A DNA stretch of 27,395 bases from an uncultured Prevotellaceae bacterium. Its GTDB lineage: Bacteria; Bacteroidota; Bacteroidia; Bacteroidales; Bacteroidaceae. The notes under the pieces are model-generated. The model saw nothing but the letters and a program-made list of their open reading frames with translations. It was not told the origin of the DNA and ran no database searches. This document shows positions 6,242-26,988 of this stretch, piece by piece; position 1 is the first letter of the stretch; every line of letters begins with the position of its first letter. A program made the position numbers and the translations under genes. Location of the stretch: positions 1-27,395 of the forward strand of contig CAMPCG010000006.1 of NCBI GenBank assembly GCA_946644025.1, written 5' to 3'.

Positions 6242-6244
6242 AAA

Positions 6245-6339
6245 CAAGTTGGGTGGTGGGAAGTGAGAGGTGAGAGGAATGTTCTACCCCAAAGTAACCA
6301 CTCAATACCCACCACCCAACACCTAACACCCAACACCCA
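6245..6339. repeat. Heptamer-armed intergenic hairpin, copy 1
   Basis: A perfect 13 bp inverted repeat (GTTGGGTGGTGGG at 6248-6260, CCCACCACCCAAC at 6308-6320) encloses AATGTTCTACCCCAAAGT. Both sides have 7-bp periodicity: GTGAGAG GTGAGAG on the left, and CCCAACA CCTAACA CCCAACA CCCAATG on the right. The last unit contains the ATG of the next gene. It begins 3 bases after the upstream stop codon. No TAnnTTTG promoter box is visible, so the downstream gene probably depends on upstream transcription. Confidence 0.75.
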
Positions 6340-8052
6340 ATGATCAACAGAAGACACCGCATACTATGCGTAGCAGCCTTGGCGCTGGCTTCTGGGCAGG
6401 CATTTGCCCAGAAGCCCGGCGACCTTAACAGTGACGGAAAACTGGACACGCAGGACGTCAGCCTGCTGATGCAGACGATAGCCGACAGCGACGCCACTAC
6501 TCCCGACGCGTCAACGTTGAGCAAAGCCGACCTGAACAAGGACGGCAGGCTCGACGTGGCCGACATCATCATGCTCGCCAAGACCGCCAGCAAGGGGGCA
6601 ACGCCCAACTACACCGTCAGCACCACCGAGGAAGCCCCGCAGTGGCAGGTAGACTGGAGCTACAACCAGCAACGCCCCAACTGGACAAACGCGGCAAAGG
6701 GCAACTACGAGAACTGGTCCATCATCTATGTACACATTGAAGAGGAGCTGCAGCCATACGTCACGGCCGACGACCTCATGGCCATCTTCGTGGGAGGCGA
6801 GGTGCGCGGCCTGGCCAGCCCCACCGTCAACATGGGCGCCACCGACAACAGCGTCAACACCACCTTCCTGCTGAAGGTATGGGGCAACGAGGCCAACGAC
6901 CAGCTCGTGGACATCACGCTGAAATACTACAACAGCCAGCTGAACCAGATTTTCTCGCTCTCAGACACCTTCACCGTGGGCGAGGTCGAGGGCGTAGGCA
7001 GCGACTTCACGCCGCCCTTCACCCTTGGGTCGGCCAAGTACCCCGTGACGACAGTCACCAACGTGAGCGACCTCCTCGACCTCATGGGCCTCACCCCTGC
7101 CCCGGGCGACATGATGGGCGCCTTCGTGGGCGACGAGTGCCGCGGATTATTGAAGGCAGAAGACGCGAACATGGCCGCTGGCGTCCTCACCGTCTACCTA
7201 CACGACGCTAACGAGGCCTTCACCCTGAAATACTATCAGGCCGCCACAGGACGAATCTACCAGATTGAAGGGAAGGCCCCCCTTTCGTCCCCCGAGGGGG
7301 ACACGATAGACTCTCCCTTGAACAGCAAAACTATAGTAGCCCCCTCGGGGGCCGAAGGGGGGGCTTTAGGGGCCTTGAGGGCTTTTGGTGGGGCTACCGG
7401 CTCTGCGGCTCTCACCACCTCCCCGCAGCTGAACACGCAGGGCGACTGGGAGATGACGATACGCGACCCCGAGGACATCGCTGCCTGGCAGATGAAGGTG
7501 ACGCTGACCGAGGGACTCTCCATCAGGGAGAGGAAGGTGAGCGTGGGAGACGCCCGCTTCTCGTCGTTCAGCGTCGTCCTGCCCGATGGCTACGACAAGA
7601 ACAAGTACTACGTGGTGGGTCTGCGCTCACAGACCGGCAACAGCTACTTCCTCTTCTGCATACCCCTGCTCAAGGACTATACCGACGCCATCATTGACAA
7701 CGCCGTCGGCAAGGAGACCGGATGGGAAGAATTCTGCACCATCGAGCTTGGCACCACCGGTAAGGGCGACCTCACCGCGCCGCAACGGTGCAGCATCACC
7801 AGCATTGTCACGTCAGACAAATACGCCATCTCTACCCCCCTGCCAAGCCTGAGCAACACTACCGTTGCCCGCCACAGCTGCGACACCAACGCCGACCTCA
7901 CCGTCGACGTGGCCGACATCTCCGCCATCATCTCCGCCATGGCCGACGGTGGCGCTACCGGCACTTCAGCATCGCTGCCTGCCGACGCCAACGGCGACGG
8001 CTCGGTCGACGTGGCCGACGTAGCCGCCGTCATCGACGCCATGGCACAGTAG
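6340..8052 (+). CDS. Secreted protein with dockerin-type repeats at both ends
   Basis: 570 residues with a signal peptide at about 1-23 (basic start, hydrophobic ALALASGQAFA, cut before QKPGD). Directly after it come two dockerin type I/EF-hand-like loops (DLNSDGKLDTQD and DLNKDGRLDVAD). The last about 60 residues hold two more (DTNADLTVDVAD and DANGDGSVDVAD), which are calcium-binding motifs by family knowledge. Between them lie two copies of a module also seen in the upstream giant protein: DLMAIFVGGEVRGLA and DMMGAFVGDECRGLL, each followed by a strand ending in LKYY. Residues about 312-345 (APLSSPEGD ... APSGAEGGALGAL) are the translation of a class B repeat and probably not original protein. 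The shared module and orientation suggest the two surface proteins work together. No cohesin partner is visible, so the dockerin ligand is unknown. Confidence 0.85.
   Translation: MINRRHRILCVAALALASGQAFAQKPGDLNSDGKLDTQDVSLLMQTIADSDATTPDASTLSKADLNKDGRLDVADIIMLAKTASKGATPNYTVSTTEEAPQWQVDWSYNQQRPNWTNAAKGNYENWSIIYVHIEEELQPYVTADDLMAIFVGGEVRGLASPTVNMGATDNSVNTTFLLKVWGNEANDQLVDITLKYYNSQLNQIFSLSDTFTVGEVEGVGSDFTPPFTLGSAKYPVTTVTNVSDLLDLMGLTPAPGDMMGAFVGDECRGLLKAEDANMAAGVLTVYLHDANEAFTLKYYQAATGRIYQIEGKAPLSSPEGDTIDSPLNSKTIVAPSGAEGGALGALRAFGGATGSAALTTSPQLNTQGDWEMTIRDPEDIAAWQMKVTLTEGLSIRERKVSVGDARFSSFSVVLPDGYDKNKYYVVGLRSQTGNSYFLFCIPLLKDYTDAIIDNAVGKETGWEEFCTIELGTTGKGDLTAPQRCSITSIVTSDKYAISTPLPSLSNTTVARHSCDTNADLTVDVADISAIISAMADGGATGTSASLPADANGDGSVDVADVAAVIDAMAQ
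7275..7374 (+). repeat. Class B GC-rich palindromic element, in frame inside CDS
   Basis: An element of about 100 bp with two palindromic halves: TCGTCCCCCGAGGGGGAC and GCCCCCTCGGGGGC, joined by a spacer containing CAAAACTATAGTAG. The right end passes into GGGGCC-type 9-mers. It matches the copy at 10545-10641 in the same orientation and the copy at 10308-10405 in inverse orientation. It is translated without a stop in this gene. Confidence 0.85.
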
Positions 8053-8300
8053 AGGAGTTAGGAGTTAGGAGTTAGGAGTTAAGAGTTAGGAGTTAGGAGT
8101 TAGGAGTTAAGAGTTAGGAGTTAAGAGTTAGGAGTGAACTCTTAACTCCCAAACAACTCCCAAATCTTAACTCCTAACTCCCAAACAACTCCTAACTCCT
8201 AACTCCTAACTCTTAACTCCTAACTCCTAACTCCCAAACAACTCCTAACTCCCAAACAACTCCTAACTCTTAACTCCTAACTCCTAACTCCCTAACTCCC
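8051..8300. repeat. Heptamer-armed intergenic hairpin, copy 2 (TTAGGAG / CTCCTAA arrays)
   Basis: The left half (8051 to about 8134) is a near-perfect tandem array of TTAGGAG with TTAAGAG variants. It begins on the stop codon of the preceding gene. The right half (about 8137-8300) is the complementary array of CTCCTAA, interrupted by CCCAAACAA spacers. The whole 250 bp can fold as a long imperfect hairpin or slip into many registers. No conserved core is recognised in this copy. It ends 6 bases before the antiporter start codon, so that gene has no separate promoter box. Confidence 0.9.
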
Positions 8301-8306
8301 CCAAAC

Positions 8307-10055
8307 ATGTCACAACTCGAACCACTCATTGCCGACCTTGCGCTCATCCTTATCTGCGCAGGCGTCATGACGCTCCTCTTCAAGAGCCTCAAGCAACCCA
8401 TCGTACTCGGATATATCGTAGCCGGATTTCTCGCTTCGCCCAACATGCCCTACATGCCCAGTGTCACCGACATGCACGGCGTACACATCTGGAGCGAGAT
8501 AGGCGTCATCTTCCTCCTCTTCGCCCTCGGCCTGGAGTTTTCCTTCAAGAAGATACTCCGCATGGGCGCGGCGCCCATCATTGCCGCCGTCTCCATCATC
8601 CTCGCCATGATGTACGTCGGTGCCTGCACCGGCGAGCTCTTCGGCTGGAGCCAGATGGACTGCATCTTCCTCGGCGGAATGCTCGCCATGTCGTCCACCA
8701 CCATCATCTTCAAGGCCTTCGACGACATGGGCCTGCGCCAGCAGCGCTTCGCCGGGCTGGTGCTCAGCGTCCTCATCATCGAGGACATACTCGCCATCGT
8801 GCTCATGGTGATGCTCTCCACGCTGGCCGTGAGCAAGGAGTTCGAGGGCACCCAGATGCTCTACTCCATCCTGCAGCTCGGCCTCTACCTCGTGCTCTGG
8901 TTCACCGTGGGCCTGTACTTCATCCCCCTTGCCCTGCGCAAGCTCAAGCCTCTGATGAACGACGAGACGCTGCTCATCACCGCCCTCGCCCTCTGCTTCG
9001 GCATGGTCGTGGCCGCCTCGGCCGCCGGTTTCTCGGCCGCCTTCGGAGCCTTCGTCATGGGCAGCATCCTGGCCGAGACCGTCGAGGCAGAGCAGATAGA
9101 GCACCTCGTGTCGCCGGTGAAGAACCTCTTCGGGGCCATCTTCTTCGTCTCCGTGGGCATGATGGTCGACGTGGCGCTCATCATCGAGTACATCGTCCCC
9201 ATCATCACCATCATCGCCGCCGTCATGCTGGGCCAGACCATCCTCAGCACCTGCGGCTTCCTCCTCTCGGGCCAGTCGCTCAAGACCTCGATGCAGTGTT
9301 CCTTCTCGCTGACGCAGATAGGCGAGTTTGCCTTCATCCTGGCCACGCTCGGCACGTCGCTCGGCGTCACCAGCGACTTCCTCTACCCCATCGTCGTTGC
9401 CGTCTCGGTCTTCACCACCTTCACCACGCCCTACATGATTCGCCTGGCCGAGCCCGCCTACAACGTGGTGTCGCGCCTGCTGCCCGCCAAGTGGATAGCC
9501 CGCCTGGAGCGCCACAACAACGAGAACGACGAGAAAGCCCCCGACGAGATGAAGCAGCTCTGGGACGACTGCTTCAAGCGCTTCGTCTTCACCATGCTCA
9601 TCAACAGCGTGCTCTGCATAGCCATCATGACCGCCATGCACTACTACGGCGAGCCGCTCCTGGCCAACATCGTGCCGGCGGCATGGCTCCACCCCGTGAC
9701 CGCGCTCATCGCCCTCATCCTCTGCGCACCCTTCCTGTGGATGCTCATGCGGGCCGGAGCCGACACCCCCGAGGTCAACAAACTGTGGGAGAGCAGCCCC
9801 CGTTGGCGCGTCAGGTTAACCGCCTACGGCCTGCTGCGACTGCTCATCGCCGCCATCTTCGTCAGCTATTTCGTGGACTACGCCATTCCCTGGTCCAGCT
9901 GGCTCGGCATCTTCGCCCTCGTAGCCATCATGGCCATCATCTACTACTCCTCAGTCCTCGAGAAGCAAAGCAACAACCTCACCCAGAACTTCACCGAAAA
10001 CCTCAGCGCAAGGGAGAAGACCCACCCCCAACCCCTCCCCAAGGGAGGGGAGTAG
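8307..10055 (+). CDS. Kef-type monovalent cation:proton antiporter (CPA2 family)
   Basis: 582 residues. The first about 390 form the Na+/H+ exchanger domain of the CPA2 family, with roughly 12 hydrophobic segments (starting LIADLALILICAGVMTLLF) and family-typical stretches such as LALGLEFSFKKI, LSVLIIEDILAIVL and SLTQIGEFAFILATLG. It should exchange K+ or Na+ for protons across the inner membrane. Unlike KefB/KefC there is no C-terminal RCK/TrkA-N nucleotide-binding domain. Instead there are extra hydrophobic segments (about 430-460, 465-490 and 510-550). The last about 12 residues (THPQPLPKGGE) come from a class A repeat, and the stop codon lies in a following palindrome, so the native C-terminus has probably been replaced. 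The substrate ion cannot be told from sequence. The start is the first in-frame ATG after the heptamer array. Confidence 0.9.
   Translation: MSQLEPLIADLALILICAGVMTLLFKSLKQPIVLGYIVAGFLASPNMPYMPSVTDMHGVHIWSEIGVIFLLFALGLEFSFKKILRMGAAPIIAAVSIILAMMYVGACTGELFGWSQMDCIFLGGMLAMSSTTIIFKAFDDMGLRQQRFAGLVLSVLIIEDILAIVLMVMLSTLAVSKEFEGTQMLYSILQLGLYLVLWFTVGLYFIPLALRKLKPLMNDETLLITALALCFGMVVAASAAGFSAAFGAFVMGSILAETVEAEQIEHLVSPVKNLFGAIFFVSVGMMVDVALIIEYIVPIITIIAAVMLGQTILSTCGFLLSGQSLKTSMQCSFSLTQIGEFAFILATLGTSLGVTSDFLYPIVVAVSVFTTFTTPYMIRLAEPAYNVVSRLLPAKWIARLERHNNENDEKAPDEMKQLWDDCFKRFVFTMLINSVLCIAIMTAMHYYGEPLLANIVPAAWLHPVTALIALILCAPFLWMLMRAGADTPEVNKLWESSPRWRVRLTAYGLLRLLIAAIFVSYFVDYAIPWSSWLGIFALVAIMAIIYYSSVLEKQSNNLTQNFTENLSAREKTHPQPLPKGGE
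10021..10052 (+). repeat. Class A palindromic element forming the antiporter C-terminus
   Basis: Reads CCCACCCCCAACCCCTCCCC then AAGGGAGGGGAG: the same core and orientation as 5666-5704, translated in a different frame (THPQPLPKGGE). It ends at the stop codon. Confidence 0.8.
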
Positions 10056-10089
10056 AATGTTCAACCGCCTCCAAGTCTAACTACTCCCC
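10047..10089. repeat. Short intergenic palindrome with the hairpin-family core, copy 3
   Basis: GGGGAGTAG (10047-10055, including the stop codon of the antiporter) pairs with CTACTCCCC (10081-10089). The loop reads AATGTTCAACCGCCTCC then AAGTCTAAC. It shares AATGTTCnnCC with the hairpins at 6245 and 25029, and AAGTCTAAC with those at 12989, 18841 and 24254. The arms are short and without heptamers. It may act as a terminator after the antiporter. Confidence 0.6.
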
Positions 10090-10115
10090 GGCCCCCTCTG
10101 TCTCTCCCCCTAGTT

Positions 10116-10307
10116 GGTTCTACAAGAATCTGTGTGGGTCAATACCGTGATGAAGATATGAGTTATATGCCTCCTGCCTGTCAGATAAGTGCCTCTTATC
10201 TGTCAGATAAGTGGCACTTATCCCAGAGGAAAGTGGCACTTATCTCTACAAGCAAGCATGAATAGTGCGTCTCATCCGAGGTTATCCACACTAATTCTTG
10301 TAGAGCC
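10116..10307. mobile_element. 192 bp element with 22 bp imperfect terminal inverted repeats (MITE-like)
   Basis: The left end 10116-10137 (starting GGTTCTACAAGAAT, ending TGTGTGG) is the inverted match of 10286-10307 (starting CCACAC, ending ATTCTTGTAGAGCC), 19 of 22 positions. There is no coding capacity inside. A mobile origin is inferred from the terminal repeats only; no target-site duplication was confirmed. With the flanking repeats it fills the gene-free stretch 10056-10480. Confidence 0.5.
10184..10244. repeat. Three direct copies of a 17 bp palindrome
   Basis: GATAAGTGCCTCTTATC (10184-10200), GATAAGTGGCACTTATC (10206-10222) and the truncated AAGTGGCACTTATC (10231-10244). Each is self-complementary around its centre. 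The first two are 22 bp apart and both are preceded by CTGTCA. They could be binding sites for a dimeric regulator of the TonB receptor gene about 240 bp downstream, or simply the internal structure of the surrounding element. Confidence 0.7.
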
Positions 10308-10405
10308 CTATAGTTTTGCCGTTGAGGGGAGAGTCTAACGTGTCCCCCTCGGGGGACGAAAGGGGGGCCACTCCCTCGGGGGCCGAAGGGGGGCCTCGGG
10401 GGGCT
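10308..10405 (-). repeat. Class B palindromic element, inverted copy upstream of the TonB receptor
   Basis: CTATAGTTTTGCCGTTGAGG followed by a GAGTCTAACGTG spacer and TCCCCCTCGGGGGACGAAAG. This is the reverse complement of the copy at 10545-10641 over nearly 60 bp with about three mismatches. A second GC-rich palindrome (CCCTCGGGGGCCGAAGGGGG) follows. The two copies form an inverted pair that brackets the promoter and start of the receptor gene. Confidence 0.85.
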
Positions 10406-10440
10406 TTTGGACTCTCAGACCAATTCATAACAAATAGGGA

Positions 10441-10471
10441 TTGCAGGAACGGCGGAAAGGCCGTACCTTTG
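10441..10471 (+). promoter_or_regulatory. Bacteroidota-type promoter of the TonB receptor gene
   Basis: TTG at 10441-10443, a 20 bp gap, then TACCTTTG at 10464-10471. Only 9 bases separate the -7 box from the ATG at 10481, so the transcript would be leaderless or nearly so. Confidence 0.75.
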
Positions 10472-10480
10472 CACCCGATT

Positions 10481-12988
10481 ATGAAGAAAATGTTTTTAAC
10501 CGGCCTGACGATGCTCGCCACCTTAGCGGCACAGGCCACACAAGCTCCCCTTTCGTCCCCCGAGGGGGACAAGTTAGAATCTCCCCTCAACGGCAAAACT
10601 ATAGTAGCCCCCTCGGGGGCCGAAGGGGGGGCTTTAGGGGCCTTAGGGGCCTCGGGGGCCTCGGGGGCCTCAGGGGCCTCGGGGACCTTAACCGACACCG
10701 CGCGAGTGGTGGACCTCGACGAGGTCATCGTCATCGCACAGCCCAAGGAGCAGCAGCTCATGCGCCGTCAGCCACTGAGCAGCTCGGCCTTCTCGGCAGA
10801 AGACCTGCATAGGCTTAACGTGCGCGACGTGCGCGAGCTCTCGGACTTCGTGCCCTCATTCGCCATGCCCGTCTATGGCTCGCGCTACACATCGTCTATG
10901 TACATACGCGGCATAGGCTCGCGCGTGAACAGCCCCGCCGTGGGCATCTACATGGACAACATCCCCCTAGTGAGCAAGTCGATGCTCAACTTCCACGTCT
11001 ACGAGGTAGACCGCATCGACGTGCTGCGCGGACCACAGGGCACGCTCTACGGGCAGAACTCGGAGGGCGGACTCATACGCCTGTTCACCCGGCAGCCACT
11101 GAACTACCAGGGCACGAACATCAACCTGAGCTTCGGCACAGGACTCTACCGCAAGGCCGAGGTGGCACATTATAATAAGGTGAACGACCACTTGGGATTC
11201 GCCCTGGCCGGGTTCTACCAGGGTCAGAAGGGATTCCTGGACAACACCACCACGGGCGGAGATGCCGACAAGGGCAACGAGGCCGGCGGACGGGCTCGCC
11301 TGGAGTGGCAGCCCACGGAGGCGTTCAGACTGAACCTCTCGGCCGACTACCAGTACACAAACCAGAACGGATTCCCCTACGGCGAGATGAACCTGGAGAC
11401 GGGCGAGAGCCGCGACCCCTACTCCAACCGCCAGGGCGACTACAAGCGCCACGCCCTCACCACGGGCCTATCGCTGAGCCTGCGCGGCAGCAAGACCGAG
11501 TTAGGATACAGCGCCTCGTGGCAGTACCTGAAGGACGATATGCTCATGGACATTGACTACCGGCCCCTGGACTACATGCACATCACGCAGGCACAGCTGC
11601 AGAACGCCGTCACGCAGGAGCTGACGCTGAAGACCACGGGCAACGGGCCCTGGCACTCCACGTCGGGAGCCTTCTTCTCCTATCAGGCGCTGAAGACCAA
11701 CGCGCCCGTATACTTCGACGCCGCCATGAACGACTACCTCTCGAAGACCATCCAGGACTATGCCTACTACGGTATGCTCAACTCCATGGCCAAGCGCATG
11801 GGCATGGAGGCCGCCGCCGCCATGATAGAGCGGGCCGGAGGATGCCACATACGCATGGACATGAAGACGGTGCCGGGACTGTTCCGCACACCGGCCTACA
11901 ACTACGCCCTGTTCCACCAGTCGGACATCGACATCACCTCGCGCCTCACGGCAACATTGGGGCTGCGCTACGACCTCTCGCAGGTGCAGATAGACTACAG
12001 CACGCTGGGAGCAGTGGCCCTCGACGAGAGCGTCATGGGCACCAACGTGAAGGCCAGCGTCAGGTCGCTGCTGGAGCACAAGGAGAAGACCAGCTTCGAC
12101 CAGCTGCTGCCCAAGGTGGGACTGACCTACCGAATAGGCAACAACGGCAGCAACGTCTACGCCCTGGTGTCGAAAGGATACCGCGCGGGAGGATATAACA
12201 TACAGATGTTCAGCGACATCCTGCAGACCGAGCTGGAAGGTGCCGCTCAGACGGCCCGCGGAGACATGGAGATAGCGCACTCGGAGCAGGACTACGACAA
12301 CATACGCGAGACCATCGCCTTCAAGCCCGAGGAGAGCTGGAACTATGAGTTCGGCACACACCTGAACCTCTTCGACCAGAAAGTGCATCTGGACCTCACG
12401 GGCTACTACATGCAGATACGCAACCAGCAGCTCTCGGTCATGGCCGGCAACTACGGCTTCGGACGCATGATGGTGAACGCCGGCAAGAGCTACAGCTGCG
12501 GCGTGGAGGCAACGGTGCGCGGCAGTCTGGTCGACGGCCACCTGAACTGGGGCGTCAGCTATGGCTACACACGCGCCGTGTTCAAGGAGTACACCGACAG
12601 CGTGATGACTGAGCAGGGCATGACGGCCGTGAGCTACAAGGACAAGCGCGTGCCCTACGTGCCCGAGCACACGCTCGCCGCCAATGCCGACTACCGGTTC
12701 GACTTCAACGGAGCGCTGAAGAGCCTCACCGTGGGAGCCAACCTGTCCATGCTCGGCAAGACCTACTGGGACAATGAGAACCTGTACTCGCAGAAGCTAT
12801 ACGCCCTGCTCGGCGCACACGCCGATGCCAACTTCGGAAAGGTAACCGTCAGCCTGTGGGGACGCAACCTCACGGCTACCAAGTACAATACCTTCGCCAC
12901 CGACAGCCCCATGGCCGGCGAGACACTCTACTTCGCACAAAAGGGCAACCCCCTGCAAGTGGGTTGCGACTTGAGGATAAACCTATAA
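10481..12988 (+). CDS. TonB-dependent outer-membrane receptor
   Basis: 835 residues from the ATG at 10481. This start gives a signal peptide (MKKMFLTGLTMLATLAAQAT) and follows a promoter box; in-frame upstream codons back to a TTG at 10316 are only repeat DNA. Residues about 22-68 are translated class B repeat plus a 9-bp tandem array (GASGASGASGAS). Next come ARVVDLDEVIVIAQ (TonB-box-like), a plug domain at about 80-210 (SDFVPSFAMPVYG, MYIRGIGSR, VDRIDVLRGPQGTLYGQNS), and a 22-strand-type barrel to the C-terminus. It lacks the N-terminal carboxypeptidase-regulatory domain of SusC and no SusD gene follows. It therefore resembles the siderophore, cobalamin or small-ligand receptor branch more than the glycan branch. 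The ligand is unknown. Import through the outer membrane would be powered by TonB/ExbBD. Confidence 0.92.
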   Translation: MKKMFLTGLTMLATLAAQATQAPLSSPEGDKLESPLNGKTIVAPSGAEGGALGALGASGASGASGASGTLTDTARVVDLDEVIVIAQPKEQQLMRRQPLSSSAFSAEDLHRLNVRDVRELSDFVPSFAMPVYGSRYTSSMYIRGIGSRVNSPAVGIYMDNIPLVSKSMLNFHVYEVDRIDVLRGPQGTLYGQNSEGGLIRLFTRQPLNYQGTNINLSFGTGLYRKAEVAHYNKVNDHLGFALAGFYQGQKGFLDNTTTGGDADKGNEAGGRARLEWQPTEAFRLNLSADYQYTNQNGFPYGEMNLETGESRDPYSNRQGDYKRHALTTGLSLSLRGSKTELGYSASWQYLKDDMLMDIDYRPLDYMHITQAQLQNAVTQELTLKTTGNGPWHSTSGAFFSYQALKTNAPVYFDAAMNDYLSKTIQDYAYYGMLNSMAKRMGMEAAAAMIERAGGCHIRMDMKTVPGLFRTPAYNYALFHQSDIDITSRLTATLGLRYDLSQVQIDYSTLGAVALDESVMGTNVKASVRSLLEHKEKTSFDQLLPKVGLTYRIGNNGSNVYALVSKGYRAGGYNIQMFSDILQTELEGAAQTARGDMEIAHSEQDYDNIRETIAFKPEESWNYEFGTHLNLFDQKVHLDLTGYYMQIRNQQLSVMAGNYGFGRMMVNAGKSYSCGVEATVRGSLVDGHLNWGVSYGYTRAVFKEYTDSVMTEQGMTAVSYKDKRVPYVPEHTLAANADYRFDFNGALKSLTVGANLSMLGKTYWDNENLYSQKLYALLGAHADANFGKVTVSLWGRNLTATKYNTFATDSPMAGETLYFAQKGNPLQVGCDLRINL
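10545..10641 (+). repeat. Class B palindromic element just after the signal peptide codons
   Basis: Contains TTTCGTCCCCCGAGGGGGAC, a spacer with CAACGGCAAAACTATAGTAG, and GCCCCCTCGGGGGCCGAAGG. It is translated in frame as APLSSPEGDKLESPLNGK and onward. The same peptide pattern appears in the dockerin-repeat protein at 7275-7374. Confidence 0.85.
10637..10690 (+). repeat. In-frame 9-bp tandem repeat (GGGGCCTCG) in the receptor gene
   Basis: Six contiguous 9-mers: GGGGCCTTA, GGGGCCTCG, GGGGCCTCG, GGGGCCTCA, GGGGCCTCG, GGGACCTTA. They encode Gly-Ala-Ser/Leu triplets between signal peptide and plug. The class B copy at 7275 has only two or three degenerate units at the same place, so the array seems to have expanded here. 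Gain or loss of units would keep the frame. Confidence 0.85.
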
Positions 12989-13141
12989 GTTTAAGTAATA
13001 AGTCACAAGTAATAGGTAATAAGTATGGTTAGACCTTAGGCCGAATGTGCTGCAAAAGTGCTACTATCGCCTAAAGTCTAACCATACTTATTACCTATTA
13101 CTTATAACTTATTACTTATTACCTATTACTTAAAACTTGAA
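12989..13141. repeat. Heptamer-armed intergenic hairpin, copy 4, between convergent genes
   Basis: A perfect 28 bp inverted repeat: 13007-13034 (AAGTAATAGGTAATAAGT then ATGGTTAGAC) and 13076-13103. The outer arms continue as 7-bp units (AGTAATA, GGTAATA). The inner part holds TTAGACCTTAGGCCGAA and CGCCTAAAGTCTAACC. The stop codon of the receptor abuts the left arm and the TAA of the peptidase gene lies in an ATTACTT unit on the right. It may terminate both genes, though it has no U-tract. Confidence 0.85.
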
Positions 13142-15337: not shown

Positions 15338-15344
15338 CTTACGG

Positions 15345-16880: not shown

Positions 16881-16903
16881 GAAATAAAATGTGTTTCAAG
16901 GTG

Positions 16904-16934
16904 CAAAATTACATTAAGTTTGTGAAACGGCAAA
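16904..16934 (-). promoter_or_regulatory. Promoter of the rlmL-like/peptidase operon
   Basis: On the minus strand TTTG (16931-16934), a 19 bp gap, then TAATTTTG (16904-16911), 23 bases before the ATG. It is back to back with the histidine kinase promoter in a 111 bp intergenic region. Confidence 0.75.
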
Positions 16935-16976
16935 ATAAAAAGGAGAAAAACTTTTCGGCGTTTCAAAAATTGTTAG

Positions 16977-16984
16977 TAATTTTG
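16977..16984 (+). promoter_or_regulatory. -7 box of the histidine kinase gene
   Basis: TAATTTTG, with a TTTTCGG about 20 bp upstream as a weak -33 element. The ATG follows after only 7 bases, implying a leaderless or near-leaderless transcript. Confidence 0.65.
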
Positions 16985-16991
16985 CGGCCTG

Positions 16992-18266: not shown

Positions 18267-18840
18267 AGAAAGCAAGTACATCACCGTGAGCTACCAGCTC
18301 TATTCCATCAACGCCCAGGGCGAGAAGCACCTCGAGGAGCAGACCCAGCAGGGACAGCCCTTCCAGTTTGTCAGCGGCTTCGGCTTCACCCTCGACGCCT
18401 TCGAGCAGCGCATCGCCGACCTGCCACAGGGCAGCAAGTTTGACTTCACCCTGCAGCCCGCTGAGGCTTTCGGTGATTACGACCCCGAGGGCGTACACAA
18501 GATGAAGCGCGAGGCCTTCACCATCAACGGCCACTTCGACCACGAGAACATCTTCCCCGGCGCCGTCATCACCCTCATGGACGAGGAAGAGAAGCGCTTC
18601 ATGGCACGCGTGCTGAAGGTCGACGAGGACGCCGTCACCATCGACACCAACCACCCCCTGGCCGGACTCACCCTGCAGTTCATGGGCCTCGTGCTCGAAA
18701 ACCGCGACGCCACAAAGGACGAGATACAGAACCTCATCAACCAAATCAGCCACGAGTGCTGCGGCTGCGACGACTGCGAAGGCCACCACGAGGGCCACGA
18801 AGGCCACGAGTGCGGATGCGGATGCGGCCACTGCCACTAA
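18250..18840 (+). CDS. slyD: SlyD-type FKBP peptidyl-prolyl isomerase with metal-binding tail
   Basis: 196 residues. An FKBP domain with the insert-in-flap arrangement of SlyD (about 8-150; GFGFTLDAFEQRIADLPQG, AFGDYDPEGV, NHPLAGLTL) is followed by a Cys/His-rich tail (about 168-196) with 8 Cys and 7 His in CCGCDDC and CGCGCGHCH clusters. In the SlyD family this combination isomerises prolyl bonds, acts as a chaperone, and binds Ni2+ or other metals for enzyme maturation; cytoplasmic. The start at 18250 overlaps the kinase gene by 17 bases; a second ATG at 18256 is equally possible. No SD or promoter box lies in between, so translation probably follows termination of the kinase. Confidence 0.9.
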   Translation: MNMNSKESKYITVSYQLYSINAQGEKHLEEQTQQGQPFQFVSGFGFTLDAFEQRIADLPQGSKFDFTLQPAEAFGDYDPEGVHKMKREAFTINGHFDHENIFPGAVITLMDEEEKRFMARVLKVDEDAVTIDTNHPLAGLTLQFMGLVLENRDATKDEIQNLINQISHECCGCDDCEGHHEGHEGHECGCGCGHCH

Positions 18841-19018
18841 TGCTTAAGTTATAAGCTTTAAGTAATAAGTGTGGTCAGACCTTGACGTAACAGCAACGCT
18901 GCCCCAGGTCTAACCACACTTATTACTTAAGACTTAATACTTATCACTTGACAACTATCGCCCCAAAGTCTAACCACACTTATAACGTATGACTTAACAC
19001 TTATTACTTACCCTCACC
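18841..19018. repeat. Heptamer-armed intergenic hairpin, copy 5
   Basis: The stem 18860-18882 (AAGTAATAAGTGTGGTCAGA and on) pairs with 18906-18928 with one mismatch. The left arm runs in 7-bp units (AAGTTAT AAGCTTT AAGTAAT AAGTGTG). A second half-core, CGCCCCAAAGTCTAACCACA, follows at about 18959-18978 with another pyrimidine-rich arm, so the copy looks like a partial duplication. It starts right at the slyD stop codon and ends at the aroC ATG. No promoter box for aroC is visible. Confidence 0.85.
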
Positions 19019-20146
19019 ATGCGTAACACTTTCGGAACACTCTTCACGCTGACCACGTTCGGCGAGAGCCACGGAGCCGGTGTCGGCGGCGTGGTCGACG
19101 GTATGCCCGCCGGCATCGAGGTAGACATGGCCTTCATTCAGCACGAGCTCGACCGCCGCCGCCCCGGCCAGAGCGCCATCACCACCTCGCGCCAGGAGGG
19201 CGACCGCGTAGAGCTGCTCAGCGGCATCTTCGAGGGCCGCACCACCGGAGCACCCATCGGCTTCCTCGTGCGCAACGAGAACCAGCACTCGCAGGACTAC
19301 GAGAACCTGCGCCCCATCTTCCGCCCCTCCCACGCCGACTACACCTATTATTATAAGTACGGCACGCGCGACCACCGCGGCGGCGGCCGCTCCTCGGCCC
19401 GCATCACCATCAGCCGCGTCGTGGGCGGCGCGCTGGCCAAGCTCGTCCTGCGCCAGCTGGGCATCAGCGTCACGGCCTACACCACACAGGTGGGCCCCAT
19501 CGCCCTGGAGCGCGACTACCACCGCTACGACCTCGCGCTGACGGAGCAGAACGCTGTGCGCTGTCCCGACCCCGCGAAGGCCCGCCAGATGGAGCAGCTC
19601 ATAGCCCAGGTGAAGGCCGAGGGCGACACCATAGGCGGCGTCATTGCCTGCGTCATCAAGGGCTGTCCGCCGGGTCTCGGCGAGCCCGAGTTCGGCAAGC
19701 TCCACGCCCAGCTGGGACAGGCCATGCTCTCCATCAATGCCGTGAAAGGCTTTGAGATAGGCGAGGGCTTCGACGGTGCAGCCCAGCGCGGCTCCGAGCA
19801 GAACGATATTTTTATGGCCGATACAGACTCCCCGCTCTCCCCTACCCTTCGGAGGGAGGGTTCGGGGGTGGGGGCTCCTCCCCTCCAAACCGTCACCAAC
19901 CACAGCGGCGGCATACAGGGCGGCATCTCCAACGGCCAGGACATCTACTTCCGCGTGGCCTTCAAGCCCGTGGCCACCCTGCTGCGCGAGCAGCAGACCG
20001 TAGACCTGGAGGGCAACGCCACCACCTTCACCGCCCGCGGGCGCCACGACCCCTGCGTGTTGCCCCGCGCCGTGCCCGTGGTCGAGGCCATGGCCGCCAT
20101 GACCCTGCTCGACCACTGGCTCTACGCGCGCACCGTCAGCCTGTAG
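19019..20146 (+). CDS. aroC: Chorismate synthase
   Basis: 375 residues. Converts 5-enolpyruvylshikimate-3-phosphate to chorismate with reduced FMN, the last step of the common aromatic pathway; cytoplasmic tetramer. All three family signatures are present: [18 protein letters not shown] near the start, the [20 protein letters not shown] region, and [19 protein letters not shown] near the end; [13 protein letters not shown] is also present. Residues about 273-288 ([14 protein letters not shown]) are an in-frame class A repeat just before the NHSGG motif, making the protein about 15 residues longer than usual. The insert lies in a loop that varies in the family, so activity is probably kept. 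There is no other aromatic-pathway gene nearby. Confidence 0.95.
19835..19876 (-). repeat. Class A palindromic element inserted in frame in aroC (inverted orientation)
   Basis: CTCTCCCCTACCCTTCGGAG then GGAGGGTTCGGGGGTGGGGG: the reverse complement of the element at 5666-5704 with a few changes. It is 42 bp, a multiple of three, and flanked by related CCCC runs (GACTCCCCG before, CTCCTCCCCTCC after). Confidence 0.85.
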
Positions 20147-20173
20147 CGCGCTTCAGCCCTCTTCACGAGAGGC

Positions 20174-20222
20174 AAAAAAGGTTGAGCCGTCCAAGCCCTG
20201 AGGTTTGGACGGCTCAACTTTT
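20174..20222. terminator. Bidirectional intrinsic terminator between aroC and asd
   Basis: A perfect 14 bp stem, GTTGAGCCGTCCAA (20181-20194) and TTGGACGGCTCAAC (20205-20218), with a 10-base loop. It is flanked by an A-tract (20174-20179) and TTTT, so it can work for both convergent genes. It is unrelated to the heptamer hairpins, showing that ordinary terminators also exist here. Confidence 0.93.
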
Positions 20223-20241
20223 GCGTACACACACGATGCCG

Positions 20242-21249
20242 TTACAATCCCTTGCTGACCAGATACTCGCCTATCTGCACGGCGTTGAGGGCAGCGCCCT
20301 TGCGTATCTGGTCGCCCGAGAGCCAGAAGGTCAGTCCGTTGTCGTCGGCCAGGTCCTTGCGCACGCGGCCCACGAAGACATTGTCCTTGCCGGCAGTGTC
20401 GAGCGGCATGGGGTAGGTCAGCGTCTGCGGGTCGTCCACCAGCTGGCAGCCCGGAGCCTGGGCAATGGCCTGCTGGGCCTCCTCCACGCTGAGCGGGCGC
20501 TCGGTCTCAATCCACACGCTCTCGGAGTGCGAGCGCAGCGACGACACACGCACGCACATGGCCGAGCAGCGGGCGTCGGTGTGCATAATCTTGCGCGTCT
20601 CGTTGTACATCTTCATCTCCTCCTTCGTGTAGCCGTTGGGCTGGAACACGTCAATCTGCGGGATGACGTTGTAGGCCAGCTGGTGGGGGAACTTCTTGAC
20701 GGTCTTCACCTGGCCCGTCTCCACTATCTCCTTGTACTGCTGCTGCAGCTCCTGCATGGCGGCGGCCCCAGCGCCCGATGCGCTCTGGTAGGAGGCCACG
20801 TGTATGCGCTTGATGTGGCTGAGCTTCTCCAGCGGCTGCAGCACTACGACCATCATGATGGTGGTGCAGTTGGGGTTGGCGATGATGCCTCGCGGACGGT
20901 TCAGGGCGTCCTCGGCGTTGCACTCGGGCACCACCAGTGGCACGTCGTCGTCCATGCGGAAGGCGCTCGAGTTGTCAATCATCACGCAGCCGTGCTTGGT
21001 GATAGTCTCGGCAAACTCCTTCGACGTGCCGGCGCCGGCCGACGTGAAGGCGATGTCGATGTCGCGGAAGTCGTCGTTGTGCTGCAGCAGCTTCACCTCC
21101 AACTCCCGTCCCCGGAACGGGTACTTGCGCCCGGCAGAACGCTCAGAGCCAAAGAGCACCAGCTCGTCCATCGGGAAATTTCTCTCGTCTAAAATGCGCA
21201 GGAATTCCTGCCCTACGGCGCCGCTGGCGCCAACAATTGCTACTTTCAT
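20242..21249 (-). CDS. asd: Aspartate-semialdehyde dehydrogenase
   Basis: 335 residues. Reduces aspartyl-4-phosphate to aspartate semialdehyde with NADPH, the branch point to lysine/diaminopimelate, threonine and methionine; cytoplasmic. The NADP-binding [10 protein letters not shown] lies at 7-16, and the active-site Cys128 is in NPNCTT. The start is the ATG at 21249, which gives the family start [10 protein letters not shown]; upstream in-frame ATGs lie before or inside the promoter box. It is monocistronic as far as visible: convergent with aroC and divergent from the second antiporter. Confidence 0.96.
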
Positions 21250-21277
21250 CTTTGTGCGGATTATAATAAAGTGGCTG

Positions 21278-21310
21278 CAAAGGTACGTATTTTTATTCAT
21301 TCGCACGCAA
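21278..21310 (-). promoter_or_regulatory. Promoter of asd
   Basis: On the minus strand TTG (21308-21310), then TACCTTTG (21278-21285), giving a leader of about 25 bases. The gap of 22 bp is slightly long. Confidence 0.7.
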
Positions 21311-21389
21311 CAATTTGCAGGAAATTATGCAGAAAGCGTCAATTTCGTGACTTTTTGCCCGCCGCCGCCCATCTTTTTACCCCTATTTT

Positions 21390-21420
21390 TTGCCGCACTC
21401 AGTTTTTATGGCTATCTTTG
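21390..21420 (+). promoter_or_regulatory. Promoter of the second antiporter gene
   Basis: TTG (21390-21392), a 20 bp gap, TATCTTTG (21413-21420), then 8 bases to the ATG at 21429. In-frame start codons at 21390 and 21408 fall inside the promoter and are unlikely to be used. Confidence 0.75.
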
Positions 21421-21428
21421 CAGCGTCT

Positions 21429-23591
21429 ATGAGCATCTTCCTGGCTGCAACGCCCTTGATAACCGACCCCACGCTGATTTTCTTCGTGGTGCTGCTCATC
21501 ATTCTCTTTGCTCCCATCGTGATGGGCAAGCTGCGCATCCCCCACATCATCGGCATGGTGCTGGCCGGCATCGCCGTGGGGCCTTACGGGCTTAACCTGC
21601 TGGCCCACGGCTCGTCGTTCGAGATTTTCGGGCAGGTGGGCCTCTACTACATCCTGTTCCTGGCCGGACTGGAGATGGACCTGGAGAGCCTTCGTCGCAG
21701 CACCCGCCATTTCCTCATCTTCGGACTGCTCACGTGCCTCGTTCCCTTCGGCATGACCTACGCCGTGGCGCTTCTGCTGCTCGGCTACAGCCACCCCACG
21801 GCCTTTCTCCTGGCCTGCATCATGGCTTCTAACACGCTCATCGCCTACCCCATCATTGGCCGCTACGGCCTGCAGAAGCACCCCTCGGTGGCCCTAAGCG
21901 TCGGCTCGTCGATGATTTCGCTCTTCCTGGCCCTGGTCATGCTGGCCGCCCTGGCCGCCATGTACACCTCGGCCAACACGGGTCAAGAGCTCTTCAGCTT
22001 CTCCACGTCCATACCTCCCCAGCTGCTCTTCTGGCTGTTCTTCCTGCTGAAGCTCGCCGCCTTCCTCGTGGGCAGCATCACGCTCATTCCCAGGCTCACG
22101 CGACTGTTCCTGCGCCGATACTCCGACGCCGTCATGCAGTACATCTTCGTATTGTCGGTCATGTTCCTCTCGGCCGCCCTGACGTCGCTCATCGGGCTGG
22201 AAGGCATCGTGGGCGCCTTCATCTCGGGACTTATCCTCAACCGCTACATCCCTCACGTGTCGCCCCTGATGAACCGCATCGAGTTCATCGGCAACGCCCT
22301 GTTCATTCCCTACTTCCTCATCGGCGTGGGTATGCTCATCAACGTGCAGGCGCTGCTGGGCGGCGGCAGCGTGGTGTGGGTGGTGCTGCTCATCGCCTTC
22401 ATCGGCACCTTCGGCAAGGCTGTGGCCGCCTACATCAGCAGCCTGCTCTTCCGCCTGCCCCAGCAGGACGGCAACATGATGTTCGGCCTCACCTCGGCCC
22501 ATGCTGCCGGAGCCATCGCCATGGTGATGGTGGGCGTGAGGCTCGACCTTGTCAACGACGACATGCTCAACGGCGTGGTGCTGATGATCCTCGTGACGTG
22601 CGTCGTGTCGACCCTGCTCACCGAGCACGCCGCACGCCAGATTACGCTCAGCAACATCTCGCCCGGCGCACTGGGCGGCGGCGAGGCCGTCTCCGACGAC
22701 GAGAAGATACTGCTCTGCGTGAAGTACCCCGAGATAGCGCCGCAGCTGCTCGACCTCTCCATCCTCATGCGCAACCAGAGCCTGAACCGCGGCATCGTGG
22801 TCCTCAACGTGGTCTACGACGACGAGCACGCCGCCGCCCTGCGCGAGCAAGGGCTGCGACTGCTGGAGGCGCTGAAACGGCAGTCGGTGGCGTCGGACGT
22901 AAGGCTGCAGACGCAGGTAAGGCTGTCGTCGAACATTGCCAACGGCATCAAGCACGCCTTCCGCGAGTTTGCCTGCTCGGAAATCGTCATGGGAATGCAC
23001 GTCCACACCGACGTGAACCCGAAGTTCTGGGGAGAGTTCATCCAGAGCCTCTACAACGGCCTTAACCGCCAGATTATCCTCACCCGCTTTGTCCAGCCGA
23101 TGACGACGCTGCGCCGCATACAGGTGGCCGTCCCCTCGCGGGCTGAGTACGAGCCGGGCTTCCACCGCTGGCTGGAACGGCTGTGCCGACTGGCCACCCA
23201 GCTCGACTGCCGCACCGTGTTCCACGGCCGCCAGGAGTCGCTCGACCTCATAGAGAACCACATCTGGACACGCCACAAGAGCATGAAGGCCGAGTATCTG
23301 CCCATGAAGCACTGGAACGAGCTGCCGCGCCTGGCCTCGTCCATCTCGCCCGACCATCTCTTCGTCGTCGTCACCGCCCGTAAGGGAACCATCTCCTACA
23401 AGAACGCGCTGGAACGGCTGCCCGACGAGCTGCAGCAGCACTTCTCGGGCACGAACCTCATGATTATCTTCCCCGACCAGTATGGCGGCACGCTGAAGGA
23501 AGAGGGCATGAGCTTCACCGAGGCGCAGCACCACGAGGAGACCAGCCTCTACGACACCATCATGCAGCTCATACACAGAAGATTTTCATAA
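21429..23591 (+). CDS. Cation:proton antiporter (CPA2) with C-terminal universal-stress-like domain
   Basis: 720 residues from the ATG at 21429. An Na+/H+ exchanger domain of about 12 membrane segments spans about 10-410 (LRIPHIIGMVLAGIAVGPYG, LFLAGLEMDLESLRR, GLEGIVGAFISGLILNR, MFGLTSAHAAGAIAMVMVG). About 300 soluble residues follow. Their halves (about 440-560 and 570-715) have alternating strands and helices like UspA-type nucleotide-binding domains (ILLCVKYPEIAPQLLDLSIL; RIQVAVPSRAEYEPGF). It probably exchanges Na+ or K+ for protons at the inner membrane, with the soluble part regulating it. The start follows a promoter box by 8 bases. The ABC ATPase gene follows 15 bases after the stop, so they are likely co-transcribed. 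Confidence 0.92.
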   Translation: MSIFLAATPLITDPTLIFFVVLLIILFAPIVMGKLRIPHIIGMVLAGIAVGPYGLNLLAHGSSFEIFGQVGLYYILFLAGLEMDLESLRRSTRHFLIFGLLTCLVPFGMTYAVALLLLGYSHPTAFLLACIMASNTLIAYPIIGRYGLQKHPSVALSVGSSMISLFLALVMLAALAAMYTSANTGQELFSFSTSIPPQLLFWLFFLLKLAAFLVGSITLIPRLTRLFLRRYSDAVMQYIFVLSVMFLSAALTSLIGLEGIVGAFISGLILNRYIPHVSPLMNRIEFIGNALFIPYFLIGVGMLINVQALLGGGSVVWVVLLIAFIGTFGKAVAAYISSLLFRLPQQDGNMMFGLTSAHAAGAIAMVMVGVRLDLVNDDMLNGVVLMILVTCVVSTLLTEHAARQITLSNISPGALGGGEAVSDDEKILLCVKYPEIAPQLLDLSILMRNQSLNRGIVVLNVVYDDEHAAALREQGLRLLEALKRQSVASDVRLQTQVRLSSNIANGIKHAFREFACSEIVMGMHVHTDVNPKFWGEFIQSLYNGLNRQIILTRFVQPMTTLRRIQVAVPSRAEYEPGFHRWLERLCRLATQLDCRTVFHGRQESLDLIENHIWTRHKSMKAEYLPMKHWNELPRLASSISPDHLFVVVTARKGTISYKNALERLPDELQQHFSGTNLMIIFPDQYGGTLKEEGMSFTEAQHHEETSLYDTIMQLIHRRFS

Positions 23592-23606
23592 ACGCCCCCT
23601 TTTTAC

Positions 23607-24257
23607 ATGATAACACTCACCCAAATCACCAAGAGCTTCGGCTCGCTCCAGGTGCTCAAGGGCATCGACCTCCACATTGACCGCGGCGAGGTGGTCAGCA
23701 TCGTCGGACCCAGCGGCGCCGGCAAGACCACGCTACTACAGATTATCGGCACGCTCGACCGCCCCGACAGCGGCACCGTGCAAGTAGACGGCATCGACGT
23801 GACGACCCTCTCGCAGAAGGACCTCGCCGACTTCCGCAACCGCCACCTGGGCTTCGTCTTCCAGTTTCACCAGCTGCTGCCCGAGTTCACCGCCCTGGAG
23901 AACATCCTGATTCCGGCCTACATCGGCGGGAAGGACAGCAAAGAGTCGAAGGAGCGCGCCCTGGAGCTGCTCCAGTTCATGGGTCTCAGCGACCGCGCCA
24001 CCCACAAGCCCGCACAGCTCTCGGGAGGCGAGAAGCAGCGTGTGGCCGTGGCCCGCGCACTCGTCAACAGCCCCGCCGTCATCCTGGCCGACGAGCCTTC
24101 AGGCAGCCTTGACACGCGCAACAAGCAGGAGCTGCACCAGCTCTTCTTCGACCTGCGCGACCGCTACGGCCAGACCTTCGTCATCGTCACACACGACGAA
24201 GAGCTGGCCTCGCTCACCGACCGCACGCTGCACATGCGCGACGGAAAATTCCAGTGA
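23607..24257 (+). CDS. lolD: ABC transporter ATP-binding protein, LolD/MacB type
   Basis: 216 residues, a single ATPase domain. Walker A GPSGAGKT (34-41), Q-loop around [17 protein letters not shown], signature LSGGE (137-141), Walker B VILADE (157-162) and H-loop His195 (IVTHD) are all intact. The sequence falls in the LolD/MacB/FtsE branch, which energises lipoprotein release or extrusion by partner permeases. It lacks FtsE-specific context. No permease gene is adjacent, so the partner (LolC/E-like) must be elsewhere. It is 15 bases downstream of the antiporter. Its stop codon lies in the first arm of a heptamer hairpin. Confidence 0.88.
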
Positions 24258-24352
24258 AATGAGAAATGAGAGATGATAAATGAGAAATATGATTAGACTT
24301 TAGGCGAAAGAGCCGCGGCAGGTCTAATCATATTTCTCATTTATCATTTCAC
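24254..24352. repeat. Heptamer-armed hairpin, copy 6, overlapping both convergent stop codons
   Basis: A perfect 24 bp stem: 24275-24298 (GATAAATGAGAAATATGATT then AGAC) and 24322-24345. The left arm extends in 7-bp units (AAATGAG AAATGAG AGATGAT AAATGAG). The core reads TTAGACTTTAGGCGAAA, matching the 12989 copy. Both ends read GTGAAATGA outward-in, so the TGA codons of the ABC ATPase gene (24255-24257) and of the DUF554 gene (24344-24346) are both within the element. Confidence 0.88.
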
Positions 24353-25027
24353 CAGGAACCATACTACAGGCACGAGCAGGGCGGGCAGCAGGTTGAGCGT
24401 CTTGCAGTCCTTCAGGTTGAGCAGTGCCAGTCCGCTGCCTGTGATGAGCAGTCCGCCGACGATGAGCAGCTCGGCCATGAGGGCGTCGCTGATGGCGGTG
24501 CTCGACAGCCGCGCCGTAAGCCAGAACAGTCCCTGCCAGCAGAACAGCACCGGGGCGGCCAGTATCATGCCGATGCCGTAGGTCGAGGCAAAGACCATCG
24601 ACGAGACGAAGTCGAGCGTGGCGTTGGTGAAGAGGAAGGTGTGGTCGTCCTTGAGTGCCGAGATGACCGGTCCGAGCATGGACAGCGGGCCTATGCAGTA
24701 GAGCAGTATGGCCGTGGCCAGCCCGTCGGCCAGGCGGTTGTCGCCCTGTCCGCTTTTCTTCAGGCGGTCTACGAGTCGCTTAAACCGTCCGTCGATGTCT
24801 ATGGCCGTACCCGTCACGCCGCCCACGGCCAGCGAGATGATGAAGAGCACGGGATATTGCGACTGCGCGAAATGGCTGATGGTGGCGTTGAGGCCGATGG
24901 CCAGCGAGGCCAGACCCAACCCCGTGTAGAGCACTTCCTTGTATTTCTCCTTTACGCCACGATGCAGCAGGGTGCCGATAATGGTCCCGGCGATGATGGT
25001 GGCGGTGTTGACGATGGTTCCTATCAT
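24344..25027 (-). CDS. DUF554 family membrane protein
   Basis: 227 residues with about six or seven hydrophobic segments. It carries the family start MIGTIVNTATIIAGTIIG and the glycine-rich segments GLGLASLAIGLNATI, CIGPLSMLGP and STYGIGMILAAPVLF. DUF554 (YdfK/YqgA-like) proteins are inner-membrane proteins of unknown function. The ATG at 25027 is the family start. No promoter box is visible upstream; a heptamer-type repeat fills the 181 bp to the phosphatidyltransferase gene, so it may be the last gene of the mscL operon. Confidence 0.88.
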   Translation of the reverse strand: MIGTIVNTATIIAGTIIGTLLHRGVKEKYKEVLYTGLGLASLAIGLNATISHFAQSQYPVLFIISLAVGGVTGTAIDIDGRFKRLVDRLKKSGQGDNRLADGLATAILLYCIGPLSMLGPVISALKDDHTFLFTNATLDFVSSMVFASTYGIGMILAAPVLFCWQGLFWLTARLSSTAISDALMAELLIVGGLLITGSGLALLNLKDCKTLNLLPALLVPVVWFLVK

Positions 25028-25028
25028 T

Positions 25029-25208
25029 TTTGGGGGGTGAGGGGTGAGAGGTGAGAGGATAGTTTTGCGGGGTGTTTTGGGGGTGAGGGGTGTTTTTTGG
25101 GGTGAGGGGTGTTTTTGGGGGTGGGGGGTGAGGGGTGAGAGGTGGGAGGAATGTTCTGCCGCAAAACTATCCTCTCACCCCTCACCACTCACCCCCAAAA
25201 ACCACCAC
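25029..25208. repeat. Heptamer-armed intergenic hairpin, copy 7 (GGGGTGA units)
   Basis: A perfect 20 bp inverted repeat: GTGAGAGGATAGTTTTGCGG (25051-25070) and its complement at 25159-25178. The left arm has GGGGTGA GGGGTGA GAGGTGA units; the right has TCTCACC CCTCACC ACTCACC. The loop side holds AATGTTCTGCCGCAAAACTA, like AATGTTCTACCCCAAAGT at 6245. The TGA of the upstream phosphatidyltransferase gene (25209-25211) lies in an ACTCACC unit. The region between the stems has GGGGTGTTTT repeats. Confidence 0.85.
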
Positions 25209-26801: not shown

Positions 26802-26988
26802 AACATTTATTTTTAAATGCGTATCTTTTTTCCGACTTTTTTTTGCAAAATCTTTACAATCCTGCTTTTTGCAAAGCAAACCGCCGCCGCGGGAAGCGCC
26901 CCCCAGCCGTTCTGATGGTGGCGAAGAGCCGTTGAAAAGCTGACTTTGCCCGTATTTTAATTGGCGAAAGGGCAGGGACGATGTTGAA
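26802..26988. other. Gene-free stretch with no recognised feature
   Basis: This is part of the 586 bp gap between mscL and gapA. It contains T-rich sequence near 26825-26845 and two TTTTTGCAAA-like words, but I see no gene, terminator or known RNA. Open frames here are repeat-derived or lack homology. Confidence 0.5.

Follow-up and report, generated by a model that had tools for sequence, protein, structure and literature searches.

Repetitive extragenic palindromes (REPs) form REPIN- or BIME-type pairs, in which two short polar units stand head to head and are dispersed in one genome. Here we consider a stretch of 27,395 nucleotides (the window), positions 1 to 27,395 of contig CAMPCG010000006.1 (GenBank assembly GCA_946644025.1) of an uncultured Prevotellaceae bacterium, which carries six intergenic hairpins whose arms repeat every 7 nt. 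REP super-families are a subject of PMC3733652. Arrays of TAACTGA that carry stops when read one way and are open when read the other way are reported by MacGregor 2015 (PMC4679880), where heptamers are quoted as the commonest long repeats, and Rehm 2015 (PMC4692102) places the G-rich heptamers of Xanthomonas and Nostoc on the coding strand after stops and on the non-coding strand before starts. Gene-end placement, strand asymmetry and heptamer repeats as such are already known in other phyla.

The first-pass annotation of the window took the hairpin arms to be regenerated locally at every site. We think it likely, instead, that each hairpin is a copy of a short, palindromic, non-autonomous and probably mobile element, and that several related families of such elements are present. 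A literature search, a weak one in that subscription journals were thinly covered, returned among the matches listed no paper on such elements in Prevotella. Our comparison draws on 80 aroC loci, 60 stretches (about 0.68 Mb) of a yak relative (G002) and further relatives, with genomes, loci and proteins given our own numbers (G, L and P). The assemblies are metagenome-assembled genomes (MAGs), related sequences are counted as if separate, and genes were called by us as longest open reading frames; source-given names were seen for QueG and altronate dehydratase, the remaining names coming from Pfam or our own reading. L083, which overlaps L081, was left out of most counts after the first array census.

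A dispersed palindrome with a conserved head

At, or a few bases from, all six annotated positions there are indeed inverted repeats with purine-rich, 7-periodic left arms (Table 1). Their arms are 87-100% identical, lag-7 identity within left arms reaches 0.95 at 8061 but only 0.52-0.53 at 18845 and 24273, and RNA folding of four of the six gave z = -13.8, -8.4, -8.9 and -5.6. The description of a different 7-mer each time overstated their variety, since about four heptamers serve all six hairpins: AGTAATA and AAGTAAT are rotations of one unit, AAGTAAT is found at both 12989 and 18841, and GGTGAGA is common to the hairpins at 6245 and 25029. An Rfam scan of the window gave no match at gathering scores.

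The best-sampled family comes from the relatives, where a 14-nt head was counted 43 times in G002, 45 times in G358 and 54 times in G333, with 2-9 copies in each of seven other genomes. G333 has 17 head-to-head pairs at a spacing of 34-37 nt, which is the REPIN trait of two inverted short units with a spacer. The 20 pairs that we fetched (18 from G333, two from G358) consist of about four purine-rich heptamers, the head GAATTTGCTNCCGC, a spacer of about 22 nt, the inverted head GCGGNAGCAAATTC and a complementary arm, and 16 of the 18 G333 elements share one layout of 104-107 bp (nine of 106 bp, five of 105, one of 104 and one of 107; the other two are 127 and 138 bp). At many loci GCGGNAGCAAATTC directly precedes a pyrimidine-strand array (21 sites with at most one mismatch, a few of them without array), and nothing is conserved upstream of its GCGG. 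A relaxed head gave 39 sites in 2.30 Mb, 25 of them with a 7-periodic tail of one of ten kinds, one being hairpin 6 of the window; eight of these 25 come from loci fetched via the head or array pattern, and the shuffled-head control, which found zero sites, is uninformative on tails. Tails seen behind the head include AAGAGTG, AAGAATG, AATTGAG, AGAGTTG, AGAGTTT and AGGGGTG. One stretch, L302, had no match in a plasmid collection.

The annotation had also held that the arms match each other rather than arms at other loci. This is true of single cases, with exact agreement in hairpin 2 of the window and in L142 (32/32), and fails in the one many-copy family where it was tested. Own-arm identity there is 0.907 as against 0.903 with the arms of other copies, a value that 648 of 2000 shuffles equalled or exceeded (all 20 elements), and own arms share 1 variant as against a mean of 4.1 in shuffled pairings, with 4977 of 5000 shuffles at 1 or more (the 18 G333 elements). 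Since own arms share fewer variants than shuffled pairings, the G333 family shows no arm-to-arm conversion, and that own arms are no more alike than those of other copies is our strongest result against such conversion. Arms fixed in sequence and shared between loci, which had been named as the mark of ordinary dispersed repeats, are what this family has, with one heptamer and a conserved core at 18 G333 loci. The same arm comparison, and heads that are conserved across loci and species, speak against the account in which replication slippage of 7 nt would create arrays where they stand, at gene ends, and template switching would make the inverted partner; we regard local regeneration of this kind as unlikely to explain most of the pattern, although several observations at gene ends, given below, are in its favor.

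Copies inside genes

An open frame runs right through five of the 20 fetched elements. Each of these five has SEEL, SEEF or NEER in its left arm at the place where the common unit would encode a stop; similar left-arm variants occur in some closed copies (L293, L299) and are not exclusive to the open ones. Rows matching the translated element lay in open frames of at least 380 aa without stops in 18 of 73 cases, a count in which one row is the query and elements may show on both strands. By Pfam, the host genes carry QueG_DUF1730, GD_AH (altronate dehydratase), LacZ-type domains, PolyA_pol with HD, or DALR_1; we read the DALR_1 host as a putative ArgS and the PolyA_pol/HD host as a putative CCA-adding enzyme. 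A LacZ-type gene holds an element at apparently the same site in L310 (G358) and L318 (G002), duplicated in L310.

At the site of the element, the homologues of QueG and UxaA vary in their linkers, some being short, some long and some of another kind. For UxaA, 43 of the 44 homologues examined (of 120 listed) were readable there, with linkers of 13 to 56 residues, whose residues alone suggest several kinds of repeat; between P0123 and P0124 the difference is a single LLTPNSS, which is 21 nt or three heptamers. For QueG (39 homologues examined, 26 read), the full element is present in two, and nine carry a shorter version, which looks like a deletion from the left arm into the right, if change ran in that direction. 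In chorismate synthase, the linker between NDI and GGIQGG is hypervariable in the window and 20 relatives, and insertions into this aroC linker consist of 7-mer, 9-mer or other repeats according to species (e.g., L008, L009, L014, L073).

Heptamer vocabulary, polarity and placement

The period is seven throughout the window, as first described, and not in the relatives, where 8- and 9-mer arms exist. Period 7 nevertheless stands above all others. Runs in 81 sequences (1.34 Mb) number 110 at lag 7, 34 at lag 8 and 26 at lag 9, with 4 at lag 6, 2 at lag 10 and 0 at lags 4-5, and arrays in 145 sequences (2.04 Mb) number 213, 47 and 49 at periods 7, 8 and 9; the 213 period-7 arrays use 87 distinct purine-strand heptamers. 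Four consecutive RTKRRRA units are present in 94 of 296 sampled Bacteroidota genomes, G002 included, and the reversed-pattern control for this count does not give a chance level, many units fitting both readings.

Match positions of three successive units, overlaps counted, differ strongly between genomes: RTGARRA has 7 in G001, 131 in G002, 172 in G358, 285 in G333 and 16-44 in six others; CACGAATTN has 20 in G001, 2 in G002, 0 in G358, 16 in G333 and 0-4 in the others; and ACTATGM has 10 in G001, 0 in G002, G358 and G333, 14 in G331, 3 in G339 and 0 in the others. The heptamers are genome-wide vocabularies that differ between genomes, and units held in common across one genome in this way are a further point against regeneration in place. 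In G002, AAATGAx arrays (e.g., L088, L095, L102, L089, L118) often follow a GC-rich CGC stretch and start with TAA, which hints that the opposite side of the array has a conserved junction of its own.

Hairpins that are 7-periodic on both arms have a strong polarity. In 185 sequences (2.80 Mb; L145-L152 left out), the left arm is rich in purines in 22 of 23 and even in the remaining one, with no pyrimidine-rich case, as against 73 purine-left, 36 pyrimidine-left and 76 even among 185 non-periodic hairpins. Their left arms have G>C in 22 cases versus 1, compared with 21 versus 17 in 43 ordinary convergent hairpins, in which left-arm A>T is 31 versus 10. That purine-left polarity is plain terminator polarity is disfavored by this lack of G>C bias in ordinary convergent hairpins.

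Placement relative to genes is just as uneven. Arrays within genes are 49 pyrimidine-sense, 14 purine-sense and 7 mixed, and those between co-directional genes are 60 purine-sense, 16 pyrimidine-sense and 4 mixed. Across 1565 gene ends, lag-7 windows rise from 1 at 30 nt before the stop to 58 at 6 nt after it, where lag 8 reaches 19 and lag 9 reaches 5, and a further stop codon stands at +7 in 137 ends versus 102 in a shuffle. At several of 30 DPP gene ends, a short spacer consists of an array beginning at the stop codon (e.g., L199, L203, L212, L215, L218, L223). This setting-in of arrays at stop codons counts in favor of slippage in place, although as proof of growth in place the stop-codon register is suggestive only, since genes called as ending inside arrays make it partly trivial. 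Speaking against such anchoring, purine-sense arrays in co-directional spacers of at least 150 nt lie nearer the stop than the start in just 8 of 16, and 57 of 99 co-directional arrays are in spacers of less than 80 nt, where adjacency is trivial.

If the hairpins were mainly functional gene ends, they would be bidirectional terminators with stop-codon ladders, which selection would maintain although their sequence drifts. In arrays that follow stop codons, the sense unit does contain a stop in 59 of 69 cases, versus 50.7 +- 3.0 with permuted letters (0 of 500 permutations reach 59). However, the 17 terminator-like sites found in 6000-25500 (in a scan limited to loops of 3-8) all lie away from the hairpins, the G>C polarity is foreign to ordinary convergent hairpins, and copies inside genes are unable to serve in this role, so that we hold a mainly functional origin to be very improbable.

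Turnover at orthologous sites and local copying

The annotation had proposed that heptamers should turn over between strains while the arms stay complementary, and this was seen at three orthologous gene ends of close species (n = 3 orthologous hairpin sites). The nearest aroC relatives of the window are the Prevotella MAG loci L001 (sheep abomasum, 89%) and L002 (yak reticulum, 88%). The arms between the TonB-type and DPP-type genes are built of AAGTAAT in the window, of AAATGAG in L002 and of 9-mers in L001, each forming a self-complementary pair. Neither relative has a periodic hairpin between slyD and aroC (a short spacer or a 9-mer array) or at 24254 and 25029 (short or unlike spacers), the comparison covering four of the window sites and not 6245 and 8051. 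In L002, AGAAAGAACGGCTTTTTCT-based repeats lie at 15820-15974 and 7690-7810; the corresponding places of the window hold a heptamer hairpin or nothing.

The other two ends come from G001 and G002. At the L142 gene end (protein 98% identical), G002 has GTTAGGA arms and G001 has CACGAATTN arms; of seven relatives, four have an ordinary stem followed by T and one has another repeat, L230 stopping short. A periodic hairpin in two genomes where four relatives have an ordinary stem speaks for a functional gene end. At the L129 gene end (98%), the GTGAGGA arms of G002 correspond to a TAGTTCA-type palindrome of 15 nt in G001, and right after the stop none of the six further relatives has such a hairpin. 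The periodic hairpin of the L101 gene end is in none of seven relatives, L246 not reaching the gene end. Non-orthologous L231, L239 and L247 were excluded from these comparisons. More broadly, when arrays were compared with the corresponding place in another locus (1205 comparisons), some array was present in 471 and none in 734; the comparisons are non-independent, use a lenient threshold and were checked by eye in 45 cases. Arms change rapidly enough for their turnover to be traced among close species.

Replaced yet complementary arms at three gene ends favor regeneration in place, and so does the sharing of sequence over short distances. L069 and L073 (88% identical) share the array behind slyD and its register, but four of its five units have gone from AGTTGAG to AGGTGAG. 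In L073, and not in L069, 36 nt of this array recur as an exact inverted copy about 0.9 kb on, inside aroC. Exact sharing of at least 24 nt was found in 12 of 49 array pairs less than 300 bp apart, 4 of 44 at 300-2000 bp, 5 of 187 at 2-20 kb and 26 of 4046 on other contigs of G002, with inverted:direct ratios of 8:4, 4:0, 3:2 and 11:15, so that sharing is densest at short distance and mostly inverted within 2 kb. Local copying and arm turnover do occur, as the annotation had supposed, but dispersed families cover most of the pattern, and the varied arms reflect element families and fast change more than the rebuilding of arms at each site.

The six hairpins of the window

Table 1. Hairpins of the window, with their arms, heads and cores.
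Feature	Position	Strand	Arms (left / right)	Units, core and setting
Hairpin 1	6248..6320	.	6248-6271 / 6297-6320	Left array GGTGAGA-type, right CACCCAA-type
Hairpin 1, head-like GGGGTAGAACATTC	6277-6290	minus		Likeness judged by eye
Hairpin 2	8053..8299	.		TTAGGAG array 8053-8135; inverted arrays 8137-8299; no head seen
Hairpin 2, arms			8061-8108 / 8187-8234	Identical across 48 nt (48/48)
Hairpin 3	12992..13118	.	12992-13041 / 13069-13118	AAGTAAT units, core GTATGGTTAGACC; flanked by convergent TonB-type and DPP-type genes; other arms there in L001 and L002
Hairpin 4	18845..18943	.	18845-18882 / 18906-18943	AAGTAAT-type units, core GTGTGGTCAGACC; between a slyD-type gene and aroC; third core copy near 18967
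Hairpin 5	24256..24347	.	24273-24298 / 24322-24347	AAATGAG array from 24256; core ATATGATTAGAC
Hairpin 6	25028..25201	.	25028-25070 / 25159-25201	GGGGTGA / GGTGAGA units
Hairpin 6, head GCGGCAGAACATTC	25149-25162	minus		

Three of the window hairpins, and also L017, L082, L101 and L110, have the core RTRTGRTYAGAC next to arrays. As a general key this core was rejected, its 77 one-mismatch matches (versus 114 in a shuffle) being mostly chance outside arrays.

The window holds two other kinds of repeat. A different, GC-rich palindromic repeat (10308-10365 / 10547-10604 and 7276-7300 / 7340-7364), whose translation resembles PLSSPEGD...PLNGKTIVAPSGAEGG, occurs within the dockerin-like and TonB-type genes, where it seems to keep the frame, and a 21-bp tandem repeat of 4.6 copies with a partly palindromic unit lies at 26987-27082.

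Probably mobile elements with rapidly changing arms

That the elements transpose is our inference. The families differ by heptamer and head, each genome having amplified its own, and copies are found behind genes, in spacers and, with the frame kept, within genes. Because 7 = 1 mod 3 and the purine-strand heptamer usually contains a stop codon, an array closes all three frames in that sense, while its complement is often open; this stop-codon asymmetry can explain sense-purine arrays behind genes and the survival of sense-pyrimidine arrays inside them. After settling, arms may grow, shrink and homogenize in 7-nt steps, may sometimes be copied nearby in inverted orientation, and one arm can be lost.

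Several observations weigh against this explanation. Among the window hairpins only that at 25028-25201 has a close match of the element head, hairpin 2 lacks a head, and the case for a family with core RTRTGRTYAGAC consists of a few copies adjoining arrays. Y1_Tnp (PF01797) is above cut-off in seven of ten genomes and does not track head numbers; its absence above cut-off from head-rich G002 leaves a REP-associated tyrosine transposase (RAYT)-type system unsupported. No clean empty site was seen in DNA, the empty state resting on protein linkers, and dispersal leaves the local inverted sharing and the concerted change between L069 and L073 unexplained.

A mobile palindrome with a constant head and exchangeable arms, rewritten to the heptamer vocabulary of each genome by copying in 7-nt steps, would fit the varied tails of the head, the genome-specific vocabularies and the replaced arms at orthologous ends. 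With translation closed in one sense and open in the other, such a palindrome might settle both behind and inside genes. The absent arm-to-arm matching in G333 speaks against continuous rewriting, and we find this version improbable.

If copies of mobile palindromic families are indeed what the hairpins represent, an abundant rumen lineage would be added to the bacteria known to accommodate palindromic elements, in frame, within their protein genes, and two curiosities already on record, repeats of heptamers and hairpins at the ends of genes, would be linked in genomes with fast turnover.

Comparison with described systems

The elements resemble REPIN and BIME pairs in having short polar units head to head and dispersed in one genome, and differ from them in their heptamer arms, in frequent in-frame copies and in the lack of a consistent Y1_Tnp gene. 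With the heptamer simple repeats of other phyla (PMC4679880, PMC4692102) they share the excess of 7-nt tandem repeats over other periods, the placement at gene ends, the stops confined to one reading sense (as in TAACTGA) and the strand preference behind stops and before starts (as in Xanthomonas and Nostoc); as described there these are direct arrays, with one indirect repeat in a Beggiatoaceae genome, whereas here heptamers also form the arms of palindromes with a conserved head. Template-switch hairpins (PMC8794818) can explain inverted local copies and perfect stems such as those of L073 and L142, but leave dispersed heads and genome-wide vocabularies unexplained.

BrickBuilt, a miniature inverted-repeat transposable element (MITE) of Porphyromonas gingivalis (PMC4596501), is likewise a small Bacteroidales element holding tandem repeats. 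Its repeat is 23 nt long, it is described as always intergenic and its inverted ends are small, whereas here 7-nt repeats make up long arms and copies lie in genes. We do not claim membership in REPIN, in MITEs or in the Rickettsia palindromic elements (RPEs). Like the elements found here, RPEs (PMC10969869, PMC3733652) are short palindromes of many families that are dispersed and lie in frame in unrelated conserved genes; they are about 150 bp long as against about 105 bp here, where the arms are tandem heptamers and the hosts are Bacteroidota.

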